Source: a virus
DNA length: 43,018 bases
Virus record (IMG/VR): IMGVR_UViG_3300021091_000148
Coordinates: 1 to 43,018 of that record
Strand: one strand, 5' to 3'
Shown here: positions 11,347 to 31,954 of the stretch, in pieces
Numbering within the stretch: the stretch's first letter is position 1
Layout of the letters: every line of letters begins with the position of its first letter
Translations under genes and position numbers: made by a program
Notes under the pieces: model-generated
The model's input: the letters and a program-made list of their open reading frames with translations, nothing else
Database searches by the model: none
Told to the model about the DNA's origin: nothing

Positions 11347-11670
11347 CTAAAACGGACTGGAGTAGTAAGAGACGACAGTCTGCAGTGCTTTTACGTATTC
11401 GTCAATCTTTTGGACGTCGTTGTCTTTGTCGATAAAAAAGACTGGGGTTCCCCGGCCTTTGGCTCGTAGTTTGCGGTCTTTTTGCAAGGTGGCAATAGCA
11501 TCTTTCATTCGCTTTACCATCAAGGGTTCGATTAGCTCGTCTATTAACTCAGAAAAACCTTTGTCTAGTTTTTGCAGCGCTGGTGTGAGCTGGCGCTGTT
11601 GTATCTTCATAGCACGGGTTTTTCCCATAACTTTTTCAAGGACGGTTTTTGAGTATTTGATGTGGCTCAT
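11347..11670 (-). CDS. Hypothetical helical protein
   Basis: A 107-aa, Lys-rich and largely helical protein (YSKTVLEKVMGKTRAMKIQQ; FSELIDELIEPLMVKRMKDA). It ends VVSYYSSPF and has no membrane segment or motif that I recognise. It is the last gene of the leftward replication block, 4 bases after the next small gene, so both are likely on the same mRNA. The charge pattern and single ORF covering the space support it as real, but no function can be given. Confidence 0.65.
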   Translation of the reverse strand: MSHIKYSKTVLEKVMGKTRAMKIQQRQLTPALQKLDKGFSELIDELIEPLMVKRMKDAIATLQKDRKLRAKGRGTPVFFIDKDNDVQKIDEYVKALQTVVSYYSSPF

Positions 11671-11674
11671 GTTC

Positions 11675-11872
11675 TTAGGGCTCTTTTAGCCAGTGCGAGT
11701 TGGACGACTCAAGCTCGTCGATGCGTGTTTTTAGCTGGTCGATCTCGTAAAGGTAAGCACGGATGCGACTGCGTAGTTCGTAGATCTCAGCCCATAGTTT
11801 CTGTGGGGTGTCGAGTTTATAGTCGATTTCTCGTTGCCAGGAGCCTGGCGGGCTTTCTTTATCGTACTGCAT
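11675..11872 (-). CDS. Small coiled-coil protein
   Basis: A 65-aa protein whose second half is a heptad-rich coiled coil (KLWAEIYELRSRIRAYLYEI, then DQLKTRIDELESS). The N terminus is MQYDKESPPGSWQRE. It lies 14 bases downstream of the PD-(D/E)XK nuclease gene and 4 bases before the next gene. A small coiled-coil partner for an oligomeric protein is the most that can be said. Confidence 0.6.
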   Translation of the reverse strand: MQYDKESPPGSWQREIDYKLDTPQKLWAEIYELRSRIRAYLYEIDQLKTRIDELESSNSHWLKEP

Positions 11873-11886
11873 GAATCCTCAGTAGA

Positions 11887-12300
11887 TTACCTTGGCTTTT
11901 GTTTATCTTTAAACGTGCAAAACTGTACTATCCAAGAAGCTATTTGATTTCGTGGCGCAGCTTCTTGAAGGAAGTTGGTTTTAGAAATATTAGTATTCCA
12001 ACGTTTGTCTAATAGTATTAACGCTTGATTGCTAACACCAACCACTAGCGCAACAGGTTGTGACAAGTCGTACAACGTGTTTAGCCAGTGTTTTTGCTGA
12101 GGTGTAAGGCAAGTTTTTATTAGCGTTGATTTGCGTTTAGGTAGGGATTTTATGTATTTGTATTCGACAAAGAGTGTGCTGGCAGGCCCCGCGTAGAACG
12201 CGTCGGGGACACCGCCAGCAAATGTGTCGTGAATCTTCCACCGGAAGATTTCCGGTGGAAGATCCGCGTGCACGGCTCGAATAAAACCGTGCTCGTTCAT
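11887..12300 (-). CDS. PD-(D/E)XK nuclease, VRR-NUC/resolvase-like
   Basis: A 137-aa protein. GGVPDAFYAG (residues 29-38), then LFVEYKYIKSLPKR about 5 residues later, gives the Asp...Glu-x-Lys signature of PD-(D/E)XK enzymes. Gln residues further on (CLTPQQKHWLNTL) resemble VRR-NUC and phage Holliday-junction resolvase-like proteins. The first residues (PPEIFRWKIHDTFAGGVPDA) fit that family's start. The likely role is cleavage of branched replication or recombination DNA before packaging. It lies in the replication block, 9 bases after the upstream gene. Two strong hairpins lie within its first 70 bases. Confidence 0.8.
   Translation of the reverse strand: MNEHGFIRAVHADLPPEIFRWKIHDTFAGGVPDAFYAGPASTLFVEYKYIKSLPKRKSTLIKTCLTPQQKHWLNTLYDLSQPVALVVGVSNQALILLDKRWNTNISKTNFLQEAAPRNQIASWIVQFCTFKDKQKPR
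12233..12263 (-). repeat. 14-bp perfect inverted repeat inside nuclease gene start
   Basis: ATCTTCCACCGGAA (12233-12246) and TTCCGGTGGAAGAT (12250-12263) are perfect reverse complements with a 3-base loop. A second dyad, GCACGG (12270-12275) with CCGTGC (12287-12292), lies between it and the start codon at 12298-12300. In the mRNA both hairpins would form just after the AUG. Confidence 0.85.
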
Positions 12301-12309
12301 TCGCCAATG

Positions 12310-13032
12310 TTAGGCAGCGTTGCGCCCGGCATGTGCGAGGTAAACGCTTTTGGAGTACTCGTAGTCTTCTTTAGTCGCCCAGCCGACCCACTCTGCCTCG
12401 AGGTTCATGAACTGCGCTCCGGCTTTGTTGGTTACGGATACAGACTTTAGCTTCCATAGACCGGCAAAACGGTTGCCGCCTTTGAGGCCAATCATCGAGT
12501 TCCAATTGCGCGAGATGCGCATTTTTGAGCTTGAGAAGTCCATGATTACAGGCGTACGGTCAAGCTCACCGGTTTCTGGATTTTTGACCAGTAGGACGTG
12601 CGAATGCGTATCCGTGATAGTGTAATCCTGCGGTTTGTCTTGTTTCTTAATGGCTTCTTCCGCAGCGGACTGAGAAGTAAACGAACCAAGGATTCCGCCG
12701 CCAGCGTCGCGTGTACGCCATACGACGTACTCGTTTTTGAACAACAGACTGACTACGTACAGAGCTTCGCCGTAGTTGTGTCCGGTCAGCGAGTTGAGGA
12801 AATGACCAGGCTCAGCTCCAGGAATGTACTTGGAGTTGTACTTGTCTACTTCGTCCGACATCTTCTGAAGAAGTTTGACGCGAGGGATGGTAACGTGCTG
12901 ACCGACGTTTTCGTTGCCAAGGCCAGTGCCACCATCTTCGGCAATGTGGGCGGGTAATGAATCGCTACTGGAAGCCATTACAATTGAAGTAGATGGTTTT
13001 TCCTTGACGACAGCGTTTGATATTTTAGACAT
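12310..13032 (-). CDS. Conserved phage replication-region protein, possible ssDNA-binding role
   Basis: A 240-aa protein. A low-complexity N terminus (residues 1-45) is followed by VTIPRVKLLQKMSDEVDKYN, a beta-rich core (YGEALYVVSLLFKNEYVVWR; HVLLVKNPETGELDRTPVIM) and FAGLWKLKSVSVTNKAGAQF near the C terminus. I know this type of sequence from phage replication modules, where it is unannotated. Its place beside a coiled-coil protein, a helicase and two nucleases, where other phages have an SSB, makes single-strand DNA binding plausible but unproven. It is 14 bases from its upstream neighbour. Confidence 0.7.
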   Translation of the reverse strand: MSKISNAVVKEKPSTSIVMASSSDSLPAHIAEDGGTGLGNENVGQHVTIPRVKLLQKMSDEVDKYNSKYIPGAEPGHFLNSLTGHNYGEALYVVSLLFKNEYVVWRTRDAGGGILGSFTSQSAAEEAIKKQDKPQDYTITDTHSHVLLVKNPETGELDRTPVIMDFSSSKMRISRNWNSMIGLKGGNRFAGLWKLKSVSVTNKAGAQFMNLEAEWVGWATKEDYEYSKSVYLAHAGRNAA

Positions 13033-14815: not shown

Positions 14816-14857
14816 TAGGAATATCTCAGTAAGGTTTCGATATTAGCGGAACTAATA

Positions 14858-15611: not shown

Positions 15612-15690
15612 AAGTTCTCCTTGGGCTACGTGGGCTATGTATACCCGCAAAAAAAGCTCCTCATTTAGAGGAGCTAAAAGGAGAACTTAT
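15610..15690 (-). promoter_or_regulatory. Inverted repeat able to sequester a ribosome site
   Basis: AAGGAGAACTTAT (plus strand 15678-15690) is the exact reverse complement of ATAAGTTCTCCTT (15610-15622). In leftward mRNA the first arm lies at the stop codon of the RecB-like gene. The second arm is the Shine-Dalgarno and the first two bases of the start codon of the 58-aa ORF. A read-through transcript could pair all 13 bases and hide that ribosome site. A terminator lies between the arms. Confidence 0.7.
15649..15675 (-). terminator. Rho-independent terminator after the RecB-like nuclease gene
   Basis: AGCTCCTC (15655-15662) pairs with GAGGAGCT (15668-15675) around an ATTTA loop. On the minus strand the stem is followed by TTTTTT (15654-15649). 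It lies 12 bases after the stop of the leftward nuclease gene. Confidence 0.88.
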
Positions 15691-16436
15691 TTAATCCCCC
15701 AAGTACACTCGGGGTGCTCACCTTTGCTGTACGGACACCATTTGCATGAGTCTTTGCTAGGCGTCGGGGCAAAGTCTTCGCAGGTTGTCATGATGACGCC
15801 CCTGCGATGGAAGCTTGGTGCGAACTGCATAGCTTCTGTTCTAGTAAACGCGCGAATAGTCCGCTCTCTTTTATCCAGATACCAAAGCTCGGTTTGCACA
15901 AGCTCGATAAGCGGAAATCGGAAGAAAGCGGCAATAGCGTACAACAAGCATTGCTGTGAGTGTTGTATTTCGTTGCCGAACTTTTTGCCTGTCTTAAAGT
16001 CGATGACTCGGACGCTGGTCTCGTCCTGATGCACTAATGCGTCAAGTTTGATGCGTGCCCAGGTCTGCGGCACCATCCAGCCTACAGCTTCCCACTCTAT
16101 GCTGAACCCCCATTCGCCTTCGACTTCTACTTTGGCTTCGCTAAACAGGTGGCGAAGCTCGTGGAAGTCGTCTGCGAATTTGGCCAGTTCTGGCGGAAGC
16201 TCGCCGATCTCGCCTTTTATGAACTCTTCAGCTAGTTTGTGTATCGCGGTACCGCGATCAGCTGCTGAGCTTGGGGGCTCAGGGATTTTTTTAACGCGTT
16301 GGATGAAGATCCTGTACGGACACTCTTCAAAAGTCTTGAGAGCCGAATAAGACCACGTAGAAACAGGGCCGAATTTGTCGGGTTTTTGGAAAGCGTCGTC
16401 AGAGTCCGGCCTGGAGCTCTGCGTTAAGTTTTTCAA
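15687..16436 (-). CDS. RecB-like PD-(D/E)XK exonuclease with C-terminal Cys cluster
   Basis: A 249-aa protein of the PDDEXK_1/Cas4-like group. It contains WSYSALKTFEECPYRIFIQR (N-terminal Cys), RGTAIHKLAEEFIKGE, then ARIKLDALVHQD and VRVIDFKTGKKF (catalytic Asp and Asp-x-Lys), then QCLLYAIAAFF (motif IV Gln) and the terminal cysteines CKWCPYSKGEHPEC, which could bind an Fe-S cluster with the N-terminal Cys. Such enzymes process DNA ends in phage recombination. The only available start is a TTG, 11 bases after the primase gene, with a weak GAG ribosome site. A terminator follows directly. Confidence 0.88.
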   Translation of the reverse strand: MKNLTQSSRPDSDDAFQKPDKFGPVSTWSYSALKTFEECPYRIFIQRVKKIPEPPSSAADRGTAIHKLAEEFIKGEIGELPPELAKFADDFHELRHLFSEAKVEVEGEWGFSIEWEAVGWMVPQTWARIKLDALVHQDETSVRVIDFKTGKKFGNEIQHSQQCLLYAIAAFFRFPLIELVQTELWYLDKRERTIRAFTRTEAMQFAPSFHRRGVIMTTCEDFAPTPSKDSCKWCPYSKGEHPECTWGIK

Positions 16437-16447
16437 AGTGACTATAC

Positions 16448-18994
16448 TCAGTTGTAATTACTGGTATTAGTATAGCTAATGTCTGGATTTTGCAACAGTT
16501 GTCGTTCGTCTGTTGCATCAAAGTAGACCTTGATTAGTCTCTGAATCTCGAGCTCGTCTTGTTGCCAATTTACAACAACGCCTGTAACAGGATGCGTTTC
16601 TCGGCTGGCTCCTGGCATACGCTTACGGCTAGGCACTATCCCAAACTTACTCATTTGCTTGGCGAATTCTCGCTGTGACAAACGGGGGTTTGCTTCGGTT
16701 TGTACGTGAAAAACCGTACGCAAATGCTCCATTGGGATTACCGTATATGTGAACTTGGCTAAGGCAATCCAGCCTTTGACGATGCGCTGCGCAGTAGATA
16801 CTTCGTTCATGTTTTGCGCGTTAGAAATGTTAATCTCGAGGATGTCGCTAAAAAACAACAAATCTCCTCGCTTTAGCGCTTCGGCAAACTCTTCCATGAT
16901 AGACATCGATACATGCCGCATTTGGTTCTTGGCAGTGTTGTCGATGCAAGTCTGAACCATGCGTTCGTCTATCTTGAAGGTCTGCAGATAACCAGCGAAT
17001 GCGTCAAGCTCTTCAGTCATAAGGTCGAGCTCTTTAAGAAGCTTGGGGTACGCCTCTTCGATCTTGCATTCCTGGCGGGGCGGGATGTTGTACCGCCGAT
17101 CGCCGTCCTCGATCTTGATGGCGTCGTTCCTGTTGGTTAGGAAGATGAAATTCGTGTAGTTTGGAATCTCCACTTGGTTGGTCCGCATTGCGCGGATCGT
17201 GATGGTGTCTTCCGTGATCTGGTTCTTGAGCTTGTCGGCGATCTTCATTGTGCCGATTGATGACGACGACATGTGGAACTCGTCGACAACTAGGAACAGC
17301 GCGTTGCGCATGTACAGGTTGAAATGCTCTTCGATGTTCTGTAGCGCCTTCATTGGTACGTGCTCGCTGCCAAACAACGGGCGAAGCACTTTGCTGTAGA
17401 ACAGACCTTTACCTGTACCGGGTACGCCGCCAAAGACCCAAGCGGTCTTGGCTTTTTGGCGGGTCTGGAAGATGTACGACAGCCAGTTGATGAAGTGCTC
17501 GAACTCGGCGTCGCCGTTGCCTAGTACGTGATGTACCAACGTGTAGATACGTGGGCAGACGTTCGAGATCAGTTTTGCGTGGCCATATTCCAATGGCTTG
17601 TTTGGAATTTTGGGGTCAAGCATGTACTTGGTCTTGCGGTACATGTTGACGAAATACGGTACGTTTTCGAAGTCGATCGACTCGCTGTTTGATGTTGGAT
17701 TAAAGACAACACGTGCATCCCGGACAAAGTCGGGTGCTGGCCGTCCATGGCTCAGCATAAAACCTTCGATACTGGTCTTGCTGGTCGGCACGAGCGGAAA
17801 CTCTTCCGTGAACTGGTTGAGGTTTGGGTCGTACACGCCGTTGTAGTAGATGTCTGTGTAGTAGTCGCGAAGTACGATTGGGTAGTTGGACTTGCCAGAC
17901 TTTTCAAGGTGCGTCTTAAAGAGCTCGAATATGCTCTTGTAAAATTCTTTGTCGGCTCTTTCGATTTCGAATATCGGCTCGTCCTTGAAATTGAACATGT
18001 AGGTTGGACGTTCGATATTGAAGTAATACCCGCCGCTGTCTCCGCCGTTGATATTGCATCGGATCCATGGCATAGCTGAAGAGTCGGCAATGCTAATAGA
18101 CATCTTGTCCGGATTAAGCAAGACTTCTTGGGCCTGGTGGTCAATGGTCATTGTCTGCAGCTTTGCTGATTTTTTCTTGATACCGCCGGACTGCCGCAAC
18201 TCATCTTTCAATGCTTGACCAGTTTGAAACGTTGTCTCTGGATTTAGAGACGTCATCAAGGCCGCCAGGTCGAACGATGCATTCGTTCGATCAACACGAA
18301 CGATACGGTCTTGATCAGAGACAAACGGGTTCTGTAGCGGGTCTTCGAATGTCGGCGGCGCAATGAAGATTAGCTTGCTGTTGTCTGCAACTGATACGTC
18401 GAGCGGATACCGCAGCGACTGGCCATTGGCGCTGAGCGTCAGTTGCGTCTTGAAAAGATCAGACGTGTAGTTGACGTGCTGCAGCCAAAGCTTGATTGAC
18501 TTAGGCGGCATTGGCACGGTCAGCAACATAAAGATGTGCATCGATATGCGCTCGCCCTTGAGGCCGAGACTAGCTGATGCTTGTGCTATGTAGCTTACGT
18601 CGTGCAGCTGGGTTGGTAGGTCAGCAATGATCTGCTCAGCAATTAACTGGACGTCGTTTGCTGTGAGCTTTGCTGATCTGATGATACGACGCGGCAATGT
18701 GATTGCGTCGAAATCAAGAACAAGCAACCCGTTCAGGGCAAGCCGGTCGCTTTTTTGTGCGCGGCTTTCAGAGACAAGCGCGCGTTTAAGCGCGCCTTTG
18801 AGCATGCAGTGCCCGGAGTTTGAATGCGTGCGAATAAGGTCTTCCAGCTGGACCAAGCCCGCCTGGGAAACCTGTATTGGATGCTCGTGTGAAGTTACGT
18901 CTTTGACATAGGGATAAGGTCTTGTGTCACCGTTGGTGAAGTAATGCTTACTCAGCGAGAAGCCGTTCGTGGCTTCCAAAAACGTAACCTTCAT
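16448..18994 (-). CDS. Primase / superfamily 3 helicase
   Basis: An 848-aa fusion. The N-terminal half has LLVLDFDAI near residue 88, an acidic pair compatible with a primase-polymerase active site, followed by SASLGLKGERISMHIFMLL. The C-terminal half is a DUF5906/D5-like SF3 helicase: Walker A GGVPGTGKGLFYS near 521, Walker B ALFLVVDEFHMS near 570 and motif C YTNFIFLTNRNDAI near 615. A winged-helix-like C-terminal region (LSQREFAKQMSKFGIVPSRK) follows. The protein would unwind and prime at the replication fork, working with the family A polymerase two genes upstream. Only the small csrA gene lies between them. Confidence 0.9.
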   Translation of the reverse strand: MKVTFLEATNGFSLSKHYFTNGDTRPYPYVKDVTSHEHPIQVSQAGLVQLEDLIRTHSNSGHCMLKGALKRALVSESRAQKSDRLALNGLLVLDFDAITLPRRIIRSAKLTANDVQLIAEQIIADLPTQLHDVSYIAQASASLGLKGERISMHIFMLLTVPMPPKSIKLWLQHVNYTSDLFKTQLTLSANGQSLRYPLDVSVADNSKLIFIAPPTFEDPLQNPFVSDQDRIVRVDRTNASFDLAALMTSLNPETTFQTGQALKDELRQSGGIKKKSAKLQTMTIDHQAQEVLLNPDKMSISIADSSAMPWIRCNINGGDSGGYYFNIERPTYMFNFKDEPIFEIERADKEFYKSIFELFKTHLEKSGKSNYPIVLRDYYTDIYYNGVYDPNLNQFTEEFPLVPTSKTSIEGFMLSHGRPAPDFVRDARVVFNPTSNSESIDFENVPYFVNMYRKTKYMLDPKIPNKPLEYGHAKLISNVCPRIYTLVHHVLGNGDAEFEHFINWLSYIFQTRQKAKTAWVFGGVPGTGKGLFYSKVLRPLFGSEHVPMKALQNIEEHFNLYMRNALFLVVDEFHMSSSSIGTMKIADKLKNQITEDTITIRAMRTNQVEIPNYTNFIFLTNRNDAIKIEDGDRRYNIPPRQECKIEEAYPKLLKELDLMTEELDAFAGYLQTFKIDERMVQTCIDNTAKNQMRHVSMSIMEEFAEALKRGDLLFFSDILEINISNAQNMNEVSTAQRIVKGWIALAKFTYTVIPMEHLRTVFHVQTEANPRLSQREFAKQMSKFGIVPSRKRMPGASRETHPVTGVVVNWQQDELEIQRLIKVYFDATDERQLLQNPDISYTNTSNYN

Positions 18995-19012
18995 AAAATC
19001 TCCGGAAAAGCA

Positions 19013-19219
19013 TTAGTCTTGCTTTTCCTCCTTGGTAGTGCAGGGATTTTCTTCGTCGAATATTTCCTGTCGATCTATAACGATCGTAGGTTCGGCGACA
19101 AAGGCCAGTCGTACATTATACCTATCTACGCGGGATACTTTTACAGTGGCAATGGTTTTGTTGTCGCGATGGATAACGACTGATTGCCCAAGACGTCTTG
19201 TTAGAACCAAGCGCGACAT
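19013..19219 (-). CDS. csrA: CsrA/RsmA-family RNA-binding regulator
   Basis: A 68-aa protein aligning over residues 1-55 with bacterial CsrA: SRLVLTRRLGQSVVI for LILTRRVGE..I, a central beta strand pair (VKVSRVDRYNVRLAF) and VIDRQEIFDEE for VHREEIYERI. The residues that contact GGA RNA in CsrA are kept: L4/L6 with R8-R9 in strand one and R50 in strand five. The tail (CTTKEEKQD) is phage-specific. CsrA dimers bind GGA in hairpin loops, usually over ribosome sites, and block translation. The start overlaps the polymerase stop as TAATG, so it is co-translated with polymerase. Targets may be host or phage mRNAs. Confidence 0.88.
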   Translation of the reverse strand: MSRLVLTRRLGQSVVIHRDNKTIATVKVSRVDRYNVRLAFVAEPTIVIDRQEIFDEENPCTTKEEKQD

Positions 19220-21048
19220 TACTTACTGTATTTCCTGTCGTATCCGCCTTCGGCTGCTAGAGGTAAATCTGGTGCCCAGGGCGGAGGTGTGCATAGATCC
19301 TTAATGATCAACTTCATTGTAGCATCAGGATCTTTATCCGGTGCTACAATGACGATTTCGTCGTGGACGGTGAGTGCTATTTGGCCGCCGTCAATGGAGC
19401 GGCTTAGCCTAAGTAGGCTGTCGGTAATTACTATTCTGGACAATGCTTGGATAACGTTCTCGGTTATTCGGCCGCCGTATGTCGCTTCTTGCATCTGATT
19501 GCGGGTCTGATAGGTCAGGCCCGTGGGGGACGGTTCGAGGTTGTGGTATTTAAGCGACATCCCATTGGGCAAAACCAACGCCCGGTCTGTAACGGTAAGG
19601 ATGTCTCTGTATCTAGTTCCATGATTGTCACGATGAAGTGACTGTTTCAGAAGGTTCTCGAGCCGTGCCCAAAGCAGTGTAATCTGGGAGTAAGTAGATC
19701 TATAGGTGAACACAATGTTGATTGCGTCTGATTCGGAGATCTGTGTAGTTGGACCTGATGCACCTGATTCTAATGTCAGCTTAAATTTGTTATGGCCCAT
19801 GCCATAGCCAAGACCGAGGATTGCGGTCTTGCCTACAAATCGCTCGGTTGGGTTGTCTTTTTTATTAATCGGCTTGTTGTAAATACGACTAGCGAAGTTA
19901 CTGTATATATCATCACCTATCCTAAACTGCTCAAGCAGCGACGTTTCTCCGGCTAACCAAGCAAGCATTCGCGCTTCAATGTTGGACAGGTCAGCAACAT
20001 AAAGAAAGTGGTCGTCTGGTGCGATTAGGCACTTGCGTAGCTCGCTACCTCGAGGTAGATTCTGCAAGTTAATCTTTTCGGTACCGCCAAAACGACCGGT
20101 ATGCGCTGCGTAATAGCGCAGCGGAACACTGATTGTGTTGTCTTCATGGACTGCATCGAGGAACCGACGGGACCTCGTTTCGTTGATGCGGGACTTAGCA
20201 GCTGCACGGGCGTTCCAAAGGGGCTCGTACTGTGGATACAGCGCTCGTAGTTGTTTCCAGCCCGCGTCGTTTTTGCCAAATGCTGGGATCTGTTTGCCGG
20301 TTGTTGGACTGCGCTTGGTTGGTGGAGTAATGCCAAGCGTAGCCAGATGAGCTACAAACTTATCGTTGCTGGCAAGAATTTCGCGCGTTGCACCGGAGCT
20401 TGTAATCAGATCTTCAGCGCTTTTGGTTTCTTGATCGTAGTACGCGATCAATCGTTCTCGGTCTATCTTCAAGACTGGCCGACAGAACATGCGCGTAGTA
20501 AGGTCGATGAGATCAAGCTCAGAGTTTGGATAGCCCTCGAGCATCTTGTGATAGATAGCGTGGGTAAGTTCGACATCCTGTAAACAGTATTTGGCCAGGT
20601 CAGATTCAATTTCTGGTGGGAGATCAAACAGGCCTTTGGCTTTGATCAGATCGTCGCCTTTTCGCATTGACTCGTCGTTTGGAAAAAGGCGAATGCTGGT
20701 GTCTTTCAATGAAGCTTTAAGACCAGGGAAGTAACCGCGTGCCATTGCAGCGGTGTCCAGGTAGTACGTCGGTGTAATACCGTAGTGTCTGGCCAAGATA
20801 TAACCGTCGAAGAGCGTGTTGTGGCACAGCAGCTGAATGTCATTCCAGTCGAATTGCTGCAAGGCGTCTTCGGCTTCGTCTGCGCTGTACCATTCAGCAG
20901 GCTCGTCGTTGACTTTGATGCCAACACCCCAGACTTTAAACATGGGGTGCTTGACATATTCCATTGTGGTCATTTTAGTAAGGCTGACCTTGGCGTCGTA
21001 ATAAGTCTCGAAGTCGAGGGTCAGCAGAGTTTTAGCCTTGGTAGTCAT
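19219..21048 (-). CDS. Family A DNA polymerase with 3'-5' exonuclease
   Basis: A 609-aa replicative polymerase. The exonuclease domain has ExoI LDFETYYD (residue 10), ExoII CHNTLFDGY (near 75) and ExoIII YCLQDVELTHAIY (near 155). The polymerase domain has motif A YVADLSNIEARMLAWLAGE (near 350), motif B RFVGKTAILGLGYGMGH (near 402) and motif C ALTVHDEIVIV (near 562). There is no 5'-3' exonuclease domain, as in T7-like enzymes. All catalytic acids are visible. A small HTH gene overlaps its first 17 bases, and csrA overlaps its stop. It replicates the phage genome with the downstream primase-helicase. Confidence 0.96.
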   Translation of the reverse strand: MTTKAKTLLTLDFETYYDAKVSLTKMTTMEYVKHPMFKVWGVGIKVNDEPAEWYSADEAEDALQQFDWNDIQLLCHNTLFDGYILARHYGITPTYYLDTAAMARGYFPGLKASLKDTSIRLFPNDESMRKGDDLIKAKGLFDLPPEIESDLAKYCLQDVELTHAIYHKMLEGYPNSELDLIDLTTRMFCRPVLKIDRERLIAYYDQETKSAEDLITSSGATREILASNDKFVAHLATLGITPPTKRSPTTGKQIPAFGKNDAGWKQLRALYPQYEPLWNARAAAKSRINETRSRRFLDAVHEDNTISVPLRYYAAHTGRFGGTEKINLQNLPRGSELRKCLIAPDDHFLYVADLSNIEARMLAWLAGETSLLEQFRIGDDIYSNFASRIYNKPINKKDNPTERFVGKTAILGLGYGMGHNKFKLTLESGASGPTTQISESDAINIVFTYRSTYSQITLLWARLENLLKQSLHRDNHGTRYRDILTVTDRALVLPNGMSLKYHNLEPSPTGLTYQTRNQMQEATYGGRITENVIQALSRIVITDSLLRLSRSIDGGQIALTVHDEIVIVAPDKDPDATMKLIIKDLCTPPPWAPDLPLAAEGGYDRKYSK

Positions 21049-21187
21049 GCACCGTGTCTTCTATAATGGTTATGATCTGACGTACGTATTCTTCAGAGAC
21101 TTCGAGCTTTTCGACTATCTCTTGGATTGAATAGCCGGATGAAAGAAGTTCGAGGACTTTGAAATCGTTGGGCTCAAAAAAGCCCAC
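21032..21187 (-). CDS. 51-aa helix-turn-helix protein
   Basis: A GTG-started ORF (VGFFEPNDFKVLELLSSGYS, then IQEIVEKLEVSEEYVRQIIT) ending EDTVHDYQG. GYSIQEIVEKLEVSEEYVRQII fits a GerE/sigma-4-like helix-turn-helix: a Gly-turn, then a second helix beginning SEEYVRQ. The protein is almost entirely this domain. The start shares the G of the upstream TAG stop, and the end overlaps the DNA polymerase start by 17 bases, so its translation is coupled on both sides. It could regulate the polymerase operon or bind the origin. No SD of its own is seen. Confidence 0.65.
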   Translation of the reverse strand: MGFFEPNDFKVLELLSSGYSIQEIVEKLEVSEEYVRQIITIIEDTVHDYQG

Positions 21188-21456: not shown

Positions 21457-22587
21457 TCAAGCAGACAAATAAACTGTTTCGCCAAATGGCGCTACAAGGT
21501 TTTTGCTGACGGATACCCATAGTGTTGGAGCGCATGCTGCTTCTTCAGCGGACGCAAAGTCTTCTGCGCCTGTTTCTAAATCAGTAAGATAAACAATAGC
21601 TTGTACGTCCGGGTGGTTGTCGCGCAAATATTCAAACGCTGGCGTAAACGCTGTACCGCCACGCCCTTTGAACGAAGGAAGCTGTGACGCTTTTAAGCGT
21701 TCACCCGTATCAAGAACTTTTACGTCTTGGACTTGGGCGTCTGCTTGGATCCAGACAATTGATGACGGCTGGACCTGAGCCATGACTGCATCTACTTCAG
21801 AGATGAACTGAGCGCCCTGCTCGTCTGTAATGGATCCACTAGAATCGTTGACGACTGCAACTTTGCCACAGGTCTCTTGGTACATAGACGGAAGATATTC
21901 ATCTTCTGAAATCCATGCTCGGTGAGGCTTGCGCCACGAATAGTCGTCTCGGTTAAGTTCCGTGAAAAACGGCCAGAGGACCGTGCGCCAGTCAACCTTG
22001 GGTTGGAGTATTTCCGAGATAAAGAGCTCGATGTTACCAGGGAGTTTGCCACGTGCTTTGGCTACAGCAGCAGCTTCGCCTACGGCGATCTGCCAGTTGG
22101 ACTCTTGTTCAGCAGCAGAGCCTGCTTCAAGGCTGCCGCTTGTTGCGTCAAGCACGATACCCCAGGCGCAGGGCTTGGGGCGTTTGCTGGGCTCTTTGTT
22201 GATAAGGTTGTAAATTTCTTCCGCGCCCATACCTTTGTAGGCAGGGTCTAAAAGAGCGCCTTTTGGCAGGATAAATCCTGATTCGATCAGGTGGTCGTTG
22301 ATTGCGTAATCGCAAGCAATATTCCACAGCTGGTGATCACGTTCTTGTCTACGTGTCTGATGGTTAAATACACAATGCAGAACCTCGTGAGCCAGGAGCC
22401 CACGAAGCTGCATTGGATCTAGCTTAAGAATATAAGCAGGATCGTAGTACAGATGAATACCATCTGTAGCTGCGGTCTTAATATCTTCACGTTGCACAGG
22501 GCGAAGACGAATGGCCAACGTTCCGAAGAACGGCTGGTCCATTAACAGCTGCGAACGCGCTTTGACTAGCGCGCCTTCGGCAGACAT
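21457..22587 (-). CDS. VWA-like protein with N-terminal metallopeptidase domain (DUF2201 type)
   Basis: A 376-aa protein. Residues 60-80 hold LLAHEVLHCVFNHQTRR, an HExxHxxxxH zinc motif (H67, E68, H71, H76), in the putative metallopeptidase domain DUF2201_N. The C-terminal half is a VWA-like domain with metal-ion-dependent adhesion residues: VVNDSSGSITDEQ (DxSxS), KGRGGTAFTP (Thr) and IVYLTDLETGAED (Asp). Such proteins pair with MoxR AAA+ ATPases, as here two genes upstream, probably as a chaperone-like machine that remodels a target complex. The gap between this gene and the 225-aa neighbour is one base, so all three are one unit. Confidence 0.88.
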   Translation of the reverse strand: MSAEGALVKARSQLLMDQPFFGTLAIRLRPVQREDIKTAATDGIHLYYDPAYILKLDPMQLRGLLAHEVLHCVFNHQTRRQERDHQLWNIACDYAINDHLIESGFILPKGALLDPAYKGMGAEEIYNLINKEPSKRPKPCAWGIVLDATSGSLEAGSAAEQESNWQIAVGEAAAVAKARGKLPGNIELFISEILQPKVDWRTVLWPFFTELNRDDYSWRKPHRAWISEDEYLPSMYQETCGKVAVVNDSSGSITDEQGAQFISEVDAVMAQVQPSSIVWIQADAQVQDVKVLDTGERLKASQLPSFKGRGGTAFTPAFEYLRDNHPDVQAIVYLTDLETGAEDFASAEEAACAPTLWVSVSKNLVAPFGETVYLSA

Positions 22588-22588
22588 A

Positions 22589-23266
22589 TCAACCTCCTAC
22601 GAGTTTTGCTGTGAGTACTACTTCGTTGACAAATGCGTCGTCGAACTGAACTTCTTCCTTGATTTGTTGTGCGCGCGCAACACGGGTGATGCGCTCGTAC
22701 ATGCGAGTCTTGGCTTCGTGAGGAACGAAAGACTCACCAGCAGGCCAGGCAAGTAGCAGCTGCTTTACTGTCGAACATTGCTTGAGCAAGCTTCGAATCT
22801 TGGTGGAGTAGTCTGCTCTTTCGATGCTGTGCTGATGCTTGTCGAGTGCTGCTTGTTTGCAGCCATTTAACAGTTGAGACTGAACTTGTGGCCCAAGTTC
22901 GTCAAAGTTGAACTCGGGCATGCTCCAGCTGTTTGTCCTATAAATAGGAAAAGCTGGAACAAACTCGAATACGAGTTGTTCGGTGGTATTTGAGTGGAAT
23001 CCTGTTTTGCTGCTGAGACACAAACGGGCGCAGTCTTCCCTATTGATTCCTTTTGTTGGTCCGCCAAACGAATTAAAAGAGTACCTGTGTTGTCGATCAA
23101 ATTGATCTTTTAACGCTTTGTACGGTTCCGAAGATAATACAGCATCTCTAACAAGATTAGTAAGCTCTGTAGTTGGCTTAGGTTCGGGCCGCGCCGAATT
23201 AAAAGCTTCCATAGCTTTGTTATAAATTGTGTCACGTAAGTCATTGGTCATTCTTACTGAAGCCAT
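22589..23266 (-). CDS. Unknown protein between MoxR and VWA genes, possibly Nmad5-like
   Basis: A 225-aa protein beginning MASVRMTNDLRDTIYNKAME. The start (R-x-TND-RD-I...A) and STVKQLLLAWPAGESFVP near residue 165 recall the Nmad5 family (nucleotide-modification-associated domain 5), but I cannot confirm this by eye. It is tightly placed between the MoxR ATPase (11 bases) and the VWA protein (1 base), so it is a likely adaptor or substrate for that pair. No membrane segment is present. An uncharacterised accessory protein is the cautious reading. Confidence 0.65.
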   Translation of the reverse strand: MASVRMTNDLRDTIYNKAMEAFNSARPEPKPTTELTNLVRDAVLSSEPYKALKDQFDRQHRYSFNSFGGPTKGINREDCARLCLSSKTGFHSNTTEQLVFEFVPAFPIYRTNSWSMPEFNFDELGPQVQSQLLNGCKQAALDKHQHSIERADYSTKIRSLLKQCSTVKQLLLAWPAGESFVPHEAKTRMYERITRVARAQQIKEEVQFDDAFVNEVVLTAKLVGG

Positions 23267-23277
23267 AGGGTTCTCCG

Positions 23278-24276
23278 TTAGATAACAACGTCTACGTTAG
23301 CAGACGTCCATGATTTAAACGCCGGGTGATTCAGGAGCTGACGCTCTTTTGCGACGCAGTCGCGAATCAATACAACTTGGAACTCACGAGGCATGCGTCG
23401 GTTGTAACGCATGATGGCGTCGAAGTTACCTTGATCGACCCTCGATGCCAGTGCGCCAGCAATGGCGTAAAGCGTCGAAGGATCTCCGGGTACGCGTGTG
23501 GTTGATGGGTTCTGCATGAGATCGTCGATGTCCGGCAGATCCTTGCGGATTGCACGATGTGCGAGGTACTCGCCTGCAGGGCCGTCGCCGATCAAAGACG
23601 AAACGCCGTAGAACATGTCTTCCATGAACGGCAGTTTGCGGTTGACCATCTCCCAGGTACGGGGCGACGGAAACGCGTAGTCCGCGTTATCCATGCTGTG
23701 CAGGAGACCAGGGCGGTAACGCAAGAACGACACGATGCTGTCGTCAATGTTGCGTTGTAAAGCCCAGGCTACCCAGTCGTCGATGTTCGGCTCGAGAGTG
23801 TAGTGCGCAAACCGGTTCTTGACCGGGGTTGGCATTTCGTGGATCGCGGCTCGATCCTGGGCTCGGTTGCCAGCTGCTACGATGATGGTGTTTTCCGGAA
23901 GGACGTACGTGCCAATCTTGCGATCAAGAGTTAATTGCAGCAGTGCGTTCTGTGTGGCTTTTGGAGCATTGGGCAACTCGTCAATAAGCAGCACTACCGT
24001 GCCGGTGTAGTTGGTTTCCGGATAATCCTCGGGCACACCGTATCTTGTGCGGTATGAACCGTCGGCTTGCTCAACTACCTTGAGGCCGCCGCGAACGTCG
24101 ACAGGGTCAAACAGGTTGGCACGAAGCTCAAAGACTTTGGCTAAAAGATCTTCAGCAAACTGATAAACAATTTGCGATTTACCCAGACCTGGAGGACCCC
24201 AGATCATGGTTGGCACGCGAGCAAGCGCGTTGGCACGGAGTTCTGACTTGAGTTGAGAGGGACGAATAGTACGCAT
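23278..24276 (-). CDS. MoxR-family AAA+ ATPase
   Basis: A 332-aa protein. Walker A is IWGPPGLGKSQ (residues 25-35), Walker B is VVLLIDELPNAPKATQNALL (near 93-112), sensor 1 is IIVAAGNRAQD and the arginine-finger region is PTPVKNRFAHYTLEP, followed by a helical lid (DDWVAWALQRN; FPSPRTWEMVNRKL). These are features of MoxR ATPases, which act with VWA-domain proteins as chaperones for metal insertion or complex activation. The partner is encoded 690 bases downstream on the same strand. A structured 210-base leader precedes the gene. ATG with AAAGGACC ribosome site. Confidence 0.93.
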   Translation of the reverse strand: MRTIRPSQLKSELRANALARVPTMIWGPPGLGKSQIVYQFAEDLLAKVFELRANLFDPVDVRGGLKVVEQADGSYRTRYGVPEDYPETNYTGTVVLLIDELPNAPKATQNALLQLTLDRKIGTYVLPENTIIVAAGNRAQDRAAIHEMPTPVKNRFAHYTLEPNIDDWVAWALQRNIDDSIVSFLRYRPGLLHSMDNADYAFPSPRTWEMVNRKLPFMEDMFYGVSSLIGDGPAGEYLAHRAIRKDLPDIDDLMQNPSTTRVPGDPSTLYAIAGALASRVDQGNFDAIMRYNRRMPREFQVVLIRDCVAKERQLLNHPAFKSWTSANVDVVI

Positions 24277-24301
24277 TAGTTGGTCCTTTGTTGTGAATTA
24301 G

Positions 24302-24510
24302 GGTGCTTCCCCTGTGCGGCGGTAACTTTGCATCCGCTTCACGGCCACAGGAGACTGTCGTGTTGCCAACGCCCGGTTGGTTAGCCGGTAAGCATTACTG
24401 CCTAGGCATCATTGGCTATCCGTATTGCTACGGGTAAGCTGTTGCCGAACCACCCGCGCCTATCATGGCGCTTCTCATCGTCCGGGTCAGACTAGCTGCT
24501 GATTAGGCGG
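24302..24510 (-). ncRNA. Candidate structured RNA or leader upstream of moxR
   Basis: This 210-base non-coding stretch folds into several strong hairpins on the minus strand. GCGCC/GGCGC (24456-24460, 24467-24471). CCGTA/TACGG (24420-24424, 24429-24433) closes a GCAA GNRA tetraloop. GCCAA/TTGGC (24365-24369, 24412-24416) encloses CCGG/CCGG (24373-24376, 24385-24388). CCTGTG/CACAGG (24311-24316, 24346-24351) encloses GCGG/CCGC. No gene of credible length fits. It could be a cis-acting leader (riboswitch-like) or a separate small RNA. I cannot match it to a known family. Confidence 0.5.
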
Positions 24511-24514
24511 CACG

Positions 24515-26125: not shown

Positions 26126-26383
26126 TTAGTGAACGTTGGACTTAAATTCGTTTTCAATGTCTCGTGATGTTCGTTTCATGAAGTCCCCTAGTCCGTCGAT
26201 TAAATGATCTATTTCTTCTTGGGTGATTTGGTTATTAGTTGATGCTCGCACTGAACCAAGCACGTACGCTATTGCTAGCGTAAAGTTCTTGAGAAAATTG
26301 TCGAGTTTCTCTGGGTTGAAGCCATCTGAAACTAAGTTTTCAATGGCTGCTTTGACATGTTTTTCAAGACTCATACGGGCCAC
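26126..26383 (-). CDS. Hypothetical helical protein
   Basis: An 85-aa mainly helical protein (SLEKHVKAAIENLVSDGFNP; EEIDHLIDGLGDFMKRTSRD). The true start may be the second Met (MSLEK). It overlaps the end of the upstream gene by 13 bases and lies 2 bases before the zinc-ribbon gene. No membrane segment. No function proposed. Confidence 0.62.
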   Translation of the reverse strand: MARMSLEKHVKAAIENLVSDGFNPEKLDNFLKNFTLAIAYVLGSVRASTNNQITQEEIDHLIDGLGDFMKRTSRDIENEFKSNVH

Positions 26384-26796
26384 ACGTAGGGTAAGTTTGA
26401 TGGTTCGATCCAGTTGTAGCGAGCGTAATACACAGGGTCTTTGCGCAATAGGTTGCTGCGATGAGACGCGTGCAATGCGTCTTCGCCTAGCCAGGCGGGC
26501 GGTGCGTCATTGCGTCCATCGGAGCTGTACTGATCTGCTGCGTCTTCGAAAAACAGCAGCAGTGAGTCGTTATACCCACGAGATATCCATTCACGGCACA
26601 TGGCGGCTCCATACCGACATAGCTCTATTTCGTGGTTGCGCCACATGTTGGTAGCTGGGTGATTGCGCCATCCGCCGGTGGTCTTTGGCATAGCAAGCAG
26701 TATTTGTTTGCACTCTACCCGCTGCTTTCCAAGGCGTTGGCGGTCTAGGATTAGTGCTGATTGGGCGTAGTTGGGATACGGTAAAAAAGTTTGCAT
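26371..26796 (-). CDS. MSMEG_6728-family protein (pyrimidine-dimer-glycosylase-like)
   Basis: A 141-aa protein starting MQTFLPYPNYAQSALILDRQ, then RLGKQRVECKQILLAM and GGWRNHPATNMWRNHEIELC, then YGAAMCREWISRGYND. This closely follows the MSMEG_6728 family (MQTFLPy..f..sa..LD.rRLgkqrvE...L), which is related in sequence to the pyrimidine dimer DNA glycosylase family (Pyr_excise). The full family length is present. It may repair or process damaged or modified phage DNA. Activity in this family is not well established, so I name only the family. Confidence 0.8.
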   Translation of the reverse strand: MQTFLPYPNYAQSALILDRQRLGKQRVECKQILLAMPKTTGGWRNHPATNMWRNHEIELCRYGAAMCREWISRGYNDSLLLFFEDAADQYSSDGRNDAPPAWLGEDALHASHRSNLLRKDPVYYARYNWIEPSNLPYVWPV

Positions 26797-30395: not shown

Positions 30396-30668
30396 TTAGG
30401 CAATGGCCTGCTCGATGGCTTCAGGCTGCTGGAGCTGATCGAAGTTGAGCTGCTCCTGAACAGGGGGCTGAAGGGTGAGCCGGTGGCTGAGATATGGTTT
30501 GCCTGCTTTGCTGGTGTTGAGCCAGGTAGATACTCTGTAGATACCAGGCTGAGTGACGTGTACGAGACCGACGTACTGCGGATCTTGCTTGTCGGGGCGA
30601 CGAGCGTTGGCGAAGGATGTGCCGGTGTTGGCGGCGGGTATACGAGGAGCGTTGGTTGAAATAGACAT
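30396..30668 (-). CDS. Hypothetical 90-aa protein with hairpin-borne ribosome site
   Basis: A 90-aa protein (SISTNAPRIPAANTGTSFAN; YVGLVHVTQPGIYRVSTWLN; QEQLNFDQLQQPEAIEQAIA): a disordered N terminus, a beta-rich middle and a Gln-rich end. I do not recognise it. Its start lies in a 28-base leader identical to that of the 57-aa gene at 30941-31114, in which the AGGAGG Shine-Dalgarno is held in a GCCC-AGGA-GGGC hairpin. Strong but regulated early expression is inferred. Confidence 0.7.
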   Translation of the reverse strand: MSISTNAPRIPAANTGTSFANARRPDKQDPQYVGLVHVTQPGIYRVSTWLNTSKAGKPYLSHRLTLQPPVQEQLNFDQLQQPEAIEQAIA

Positions 30669-30691
30669 TGATGTGCCCTCCTGGGCTGGTT
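30664..30691 (-). promoter_or_regulatory. Duplicated leader hairpin, copy B
   Basis: On the minus strand, GCCC-AGGA-GGGC (30686-30675) puts the Shine-Dalgarno core in a 4-base loop 7 bases before the ATG. All 28 bases are identical to 31110-31137. GGA in a loop over a ribosome site is the classic CsrA target layout. Confidence 0.65.
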
Positions 30692-30940: not shown

Positions 30941-31114
30941 TTAGTCGAGGATTTCTGTAAGAGTGAGTAAGCCGAGAAGGATGTTGGTCGTGTGCTGCGG
31001 ATTCTCCTTGGCAGCAGTCACGAGGTTGGATGCTTGAGCTTGCACCTTATCCATTGTGCTGGGCTCAGTGGCCTGTTGTTCGTTGGTGGTGGTCTGGTTG
31101 TTTATGTCTGACAT
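30941..31114 (-). CDS. 57-aa early protein with hairpin-borne ribosome site
   Basis: ATG at 31112-31114. The product begins MSDINNQTTTNEQQATEPST (disordered), then MDKVQAQASNLVTAAKENPQ and HTTNILLGLLTLTEILD (amphipathic or weakly hydrophobic helix). It is the first gene of the leftward block, so probably the first made after injection. The leader with AGGAGG in a hairpin loop is shared with the 30668 gene. A 30-nt repeat lies 45 bases upstream. Function unknown. Confidence 0.68.
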   Translation of the reverse strand: MSDINNQTTTNEQQATEPSTMDKVQAQASNLVTAAKENPQHTTNILLGLLTLTEILD

Positions 31115-31137
31115 TGATGTGCCCTCCTGGGCTGGTT
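31110..31137 (-). promoter_or_regulatory. Duplicated leader hairpin, copy A
   Basis: Same 28 bases as 30664-30691. The hairpin GCCC-AGGA-GGGC occupies 31132-31121 on the minus strand. Sequence on either side of the 28 bases differs, so only the leader was duplicated or conserved. Confidence 0.65.
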
Positions 31138-31933: not shown

Positions 31934-31954
31934 GCATTAGGGGGGCTAATATAA

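Follow-up and report, generated by a model that had tools for sequence, protein, structure and literature searches.

A divergent CsrA-family protein encoded between DNA polymerase and primase in an uncultivated aquatic phage lineage, with candidate targets in phage leaders

Introduction

Known CsrA proteins repress translation when they bind a GGA presented in the loop of a hairpin that covers the Shine-Dalgarno sequence, with a preference for an A two bases before the GGA (ANGGA), and strand 1 and the Arg44 region are the RNA-contacting parts of CsrA/RsmE. E. coli CsrA is matched by 94 phage records. Phage CsrA/RsmA has been described from P. aeruginosa F116 and the RsmM phages, Burkholderia DC1 and Vibrio phages, and is presented there as the result of scattered, independent acquisitions (PMC7366521, PMC8450108). 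These proteins are mostly 57-70% identical to E. coli CsrA, closer to host CsrA than the subfamily reported here, and none of them is close to that subfamily. The csrA of Vibrio 219E41.1 lies beside cro-like genes, unlike the replication operon location found here. RsmQ of plasmid pQBR103, a mobile-element CsrA homologue with global translational effects, reprograms its host; it differs from the present protein in being plasmid-encoded, in having been shown to act on the host and in having no link to a replication operon (PMC9928087). IMG/VR has been scanned earlier for phage CsrA/RsmA genes (PMC8450108), and the gene described here may therefore be in the lists of that study. In the open literature we found no report of csrA adjoining a phage polymerase. 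What is new, as far as that literature allows, is the location in the replication operon throughout a lineage, together with the divergence of the subfamily and the corresponding hairpin signal.

The DNA analyzed here, called the window, is a stretch of 43,018 nucleotides (positions 1 to 43,018 of IMG/VR record IMGVR_UViG_3300021091_000148). A preliminary description, made from the window alone, had placed a phage CsrA in a lytic replication operon.

Results

The csrA gene product belongs to a divergent subfamily of CsrA

The open reading frame of 68 codons at 19013-19219 was confirmed and lies on the minus strand, which the preliminary description had not given. A search with PF02599, the Pfam CsrA family, had been set beforehand as the test that could refute the assignment; the product (MSRLVLTRRLGQSVVIHRDNKTIATVKVSRVDRYNVRLAFVAEPTIVIDRQEIFDEENPCTTKEEKQD) scored 35.4 bits (E 1.1e-8), above the gathering score of 27, and also matched PHROG CsrA-like families. 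PF02599 was likewise matched by 37 of 37 aligned relatives. An AlphaFold monomer built on the alignment of these relatives was confident (mean pLDDT 84), and when it was searched against the PDB the first 14 matches were all CsrA, RsmA or RsmE chains, with a probability of 1.00 and a TM score of about 0.6 by query; the Foldseek E-values reached only 0.015-0.17 because the protein is small. The same family was recovered by sequence in a profile search against PDB sequences.

With TIGR00202, the NCBIfam equivalog for the host carbon storage regulator CsrA, the window protein gave 30.1 bits and relatives 40.4 and 36.0, against a cut-off of 70.1. We therefore attribute these proteins to a divergent subfamily. 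Fold, length, strand-1 LTR motif and the equivalent of Arg44 are shared with host CsrA/RsmA/RsmE (PF02599; TIGR00202), whereas the lineage differs by two extra N-terminal residues (M-S/P-R), by an Asp in place of His43 throughout the alignment and by the location of the gene within a phage replication operon. In the window protein LTRR occupies residues 6-9, and Arg50 is the equivalent of E. coli Arg44. Invariant across the 37 relatives are M1, R3, L4, V5, L6, T7, R8, R37, F40, D49, R50 and E52. Strand 1 (L4, V5, L6, T7, R8) and R50 being among these, the RNA-contact surface is kept as judged from the alignment, in agreement with what had been proposed for LTRR and Arg50.

At the invariant residues the codons were scrambled (codon identity about 0.2-0.55 where the amino acid is shared), and the overall codon conservation of csrA was the same as that of polymerase and primase. 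Invariant residues with freely varying codons indicate selection on the protein rather than on an RNA element inside the gene. An RNA-level constraint within csrA, hinted at by low dS in some pairs, was discarded, codon identity being equal to that of the polymerase and primase genes. Across 80 viral loci the frame, the residues and the position are all retained, and the reading frame is therefore more than a product of chance.

csrA keeps a fixed place between polymerase and primase

In the window, csrA is preceded by a family-A DNA polymerase of 609 aa (19219-21048, minus strand; DNA_pol_A 1.6e-27, PHROG 17 3.6e-80) and directly followed by a primase/helicase-like protein of 848 aa (16448-18994, minus; DUF5906 9.9e-21, with PHROG 24712, 1829 and 1156, phage primase families). 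A PD-(D/E)XK nuclease comes next (15687-16436, minus; PDDEXK_1 6.8e-23). Pfam and PHROG thus confirmed the neighbors that had been named from the window, and their order was kept in relatives. The TAATG said to couple csrA to the polymerase is present in the window, where the polymerase TAA and the csrA ATG have one A in common, but is not general: taATG was found at 19 of 80 junctions, the others ranging from a 4-nt overlap to a gap of several nucleotides. The junction was tight in all loci.

Other genes were noted around this block. A 51-aa reading frame (21032-21187, minus) overlapping the polymerase gene start gave helix-turn-helix matches that were weak and below threshold (sigma-70 region 4, HTH_11 and others). 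Upstream of the polymerase, a MoxR-like ATPase, an Nmad5 nucleotide-modification protein and a DUF2201 metallopeptidase/VWA protein stand in a row (21457-24276, minus), kept in many relatives, and Pyr_excise, a pyrimidine dimer DNA glycosylase (1.2e-23), was found in the early region (26371-26796, minus).

Searching IMG/VR with the window protein gave 80 loci, and the order polymerase-csrA-primase was seen in all of them wherever the neighbors are on the contig. To avoid ascertainment on csrA, IMG/VR was also scanned with a primase profile, which gave 405 relatives. Among the best 80 of these 405, csrA lay just upstream of the primase in 79 and the remaining contig ends before that place (79/79 testable); more distant primase relatives could be without csrA. 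The lineage was sampled at many sites. Given this presence and the same neighbors at all csrA loci, csrA is, on the sequences surveyed, a core gene with a fixed place in the polymerase-primase operon of an uncultivated aquatic phage lineage. One 56-kb contig, IMGVR_UViG_3300020603_000019, carries csrA near both ends, in copies 100% and 96% identical to that of the window, perhaps an assembly joining two strains of a circularly permuted genome.

These observations bear on the idea that csrA is a passenger, acquired from a host and not under strong selection. Although csrA is known to travel with plasmids and phages (PMC7366521), this reading is already contradicted by the invariance of residues whose codons vary and by the 79/79 presence at a constant place. 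A dN/dS of 0.12-0.17 for several diverged pairs, with higher values for others, also speaks against it, and we regard it as very improbable.

No close relative of the window protein was found among phage isolates. With a more typical member of the subfamily as query, an uncultured phage of 595 kb gave the best match (45%). By polymerase, primase or terminase, the isolates that come nearest are KPP25, phiA008 and RHph_TM3_14A; unlike the window lineage, they gave no csrA match in the replication regions examined, and phiA008 has a small Cys-rich protein at the place between polymerase and primase. The invariable place of csrA would fit a role with the replication proteins themselves, by protein-protein contact or by RNA handling at the fork, with the CsrA fold re-used. 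We consider this improbable and a lesser rival, since invariance falls on the residues of the RNA-contact surface and since the closest isolates without csrA manage replication with polymerases and primases related to those found here.

The operon had been called lytic, which is an assumption, because the same replication gene block ends in an integrase-like gene in two relatives (L030 and L035). Confirmation by Pfam was obtained in L030 only (11589-12611, minus; Phage_integrase 4.8e-21). The presence of these genes suggests that some members of the lineage are temperate.

Leaders of marine members carry an excess of GGA-loop hairpins

In many marine members the primase leader places GGA in a hairpin loop, with quite different stems, as in GCUCU(GUAGGA)GGAGC, GGCUC(AGGAG)GAGCU, AUUGG(AGGA)CCAAU and AAGAUUC(GUAGGA)GGGUCUU; one such leader reads GCUCUGUAGGAGGAGCC. 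GGA-loop hairpins were also seen in relatives in the leader of the PD-(D/E)XK gene. By ensemble folding, the mean probability of GGA in a loop was 0.44 for primase leaders versus 0.11 for shuffled sequences, and 0.25 versus 0.07 for PD-(D/E)XK leaders; in DUF2201, Nmad5 and MoxR leaders it was at background. Swapping the 5' arms between species lowered pairing for primase and PD-(D/E)XK leaders (z 2.1-3.3) and caused no loss in DUF2201 and Nmad5 leaders. MoxR leaders were positive in the arm swap (z about 2-3), though at background by folding.

Taken over all leaders of marine csrA-bearing loci (n=393), z was about 7 for the arm swap and about 5 for the shuffle, values to be read with the partial dependence of related sequences and the several tests on the same data in mind. 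With one leader per N-terminal cluster, z was 4.8 (swap) and 4.3 (shuffle), on gene starts called by one simple ORF script and a crude clustering. The excess was centered on the GGA: shifts of -12, -18, +20 and +30 nt showed nothing, and shifts of -24 and -30 nt gave generic hairpins that are also present in csrA-less phages. Nine csrA-less phages showed a much smaller effect (z 2.1 swap, 0.9 shuffle), three csrA-bearing isolates of other lineages reached z 1.3 only, and the effect was weak in the window's own clade (z 2.1 and 1.7). The canonical A two bases before GGA was not enriched, being present in only 24% of hairpin leaders, and a first, loose hairpin count had remained near its shuffled range. 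Plain counts of ANGGA in leaders told nothing, since GGA is part of the Shine-Dalgarno sequence itself. Two further candidates were rejected: a second GGA upstream of Nmad5, which falls within the last coding part of the gene before it, and an autoregulatory site at the csrA start, where no more than about one leader in three has a GGA upstream.

Candidate sites and other RNA elements in the window

In the window itself, no hairpin with GGA in its loop occurs in the primase leader. The leader hairpin search returned GCCC(AGGA)GGGC over the Shine-Dalgarno sequence of the first early gene (site 31121-31132, minus; gene 30941-31114; leader RNA at 31121, AACCAGCCCAGGAGGGCACAUCAAUG) and an identical hairpin over that of an SSB-like gene (site 30675-30686, minus; gene 30396-30668). 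These two leaders are the best candidate CsrA sites in the window.

Folding also gave a 9-bp hairpin, GGAAAAGCA-AGACTAA-TGCTTTTCC, across the csrA stop, which ends beside the primase Shine-Dalgarno sequence (19004-19028, minus); the 51-nt stretch containing it has a minimum free energy of -11.7 kcal/mol (z -2.5). Other clades have different hairpins at the same csrA-primase junction. Furthermore, gene junctions across the lineage repeatedly contain a 15-bp palindrome, ATTAG-N5-CTAAT, which is found in the window at 14842-14856, 16466-16480 and 31936-31950. It occurs 9 times exactly in 20 kb of one relative (L070; 0.04 expected) and 6 times with up to one mismatch in the window (1.06 expected), and may serve as an operator or form a hairpin in intercistronic RNA. 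Finally, a GC-rich intergenic stretch of 238 nt upstream of the MoxR-like gene (24277-24514, minus) has equal length in two relatives (L002 and L005) and is shorter in others. It was dismissed as a CsrB/RsmZ-like decoy RNA, as no Rfam match was obtained and its folding was no better than that of shuffles (z -0.8).

Discussion

The preliminary description had proposed that the protein rewires translation during infection, of either host carbon metabolism or the phage's own early genes. Nothing ties the protein specifically to carbon metabolism, and the comparative evidence leans to phage mRNAs, weakly in the window's clade: the excess of GGA loops over Shine-Dalgarno sequences in marine members points to the phage's own transcripts as targets. 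The reading we place first, at about even odds, is that the phage CsrA is an RNA-binding dimer which is made with the polymerase and tunes the translation of phage genes via Shine-Dalgarno hairpins. The protein would be produced together with the polymerase, dimerize and bind GGA motifs that hairpin loops expose over Shine-Dalgarno sequences, and it would act mainly on the phage's own transcripts. In relatives these would be the primase and the PD-(D/E)XK nuclease just downstream of csrA, in the window genome perhaps the first early genes, and their translation would be damped as CsrA accumulates. One point against this scheme is that a hairpin at a start codon can equally function in translational coupling, with no need for CsrA.

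The main and serious rival is that the phage protein mimics host CsrA/RsmA or overrules it and so shifts the translation of host mRNAs (metabolism, motility, CRISPR-Cas) in favor of infection. Campa et al. found phage RsmA/CsrA to be correlated with RsmA-bearing hosts and propose an anti-CRISPR action, with repression of CRISPR-Cas (PMC8450108); the precedent of RsmQ (PMC9928087) and the intact RNA-contact residues also fit such a role. On the other side, csrA is fixed in the replication operon across a lineage from many sites, and it is phage leaders that show the excess of hairpins. A relative was present in a single GTDB genome, a Candidatus Neomarinimicrobiota MAG (L219, PBPT01000002.1), which has the phage csrA alone, on a 61-kb phage-like contig of uncertain binning. 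This contig may be misbinned, and Candidatus Neomarinimicrobiota was therefore not retained as host. We judge a mainly host-directed action unlikely, though far from negligible; control of phage transcripts is the better-supported hypothesis, not decisively, and phage CsrA may act on host mRNAs too.

In summary, the sequence comparisons lean toward phage genes as the targets of this CsrA. A wider version, in which the whole phage family would run its own post-transcriptional regulon, is put forward tentatively and with rather less than even confidence: the operon-encoded CsrA would bind Shine-Dalgarno GGA hairpins of many phage genes in an autogenous loop that coordinates early and replication translation and is not mainly host-directed. 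Phage CsrA genes have so far been treated as scattered, host-derived genes with presumed host effects. If the proposal is true, a core csrA with matching hairpins at the phage's own ribosome-binding sites would offer a concrete example of CsrA being used by a phage to time its own translation.
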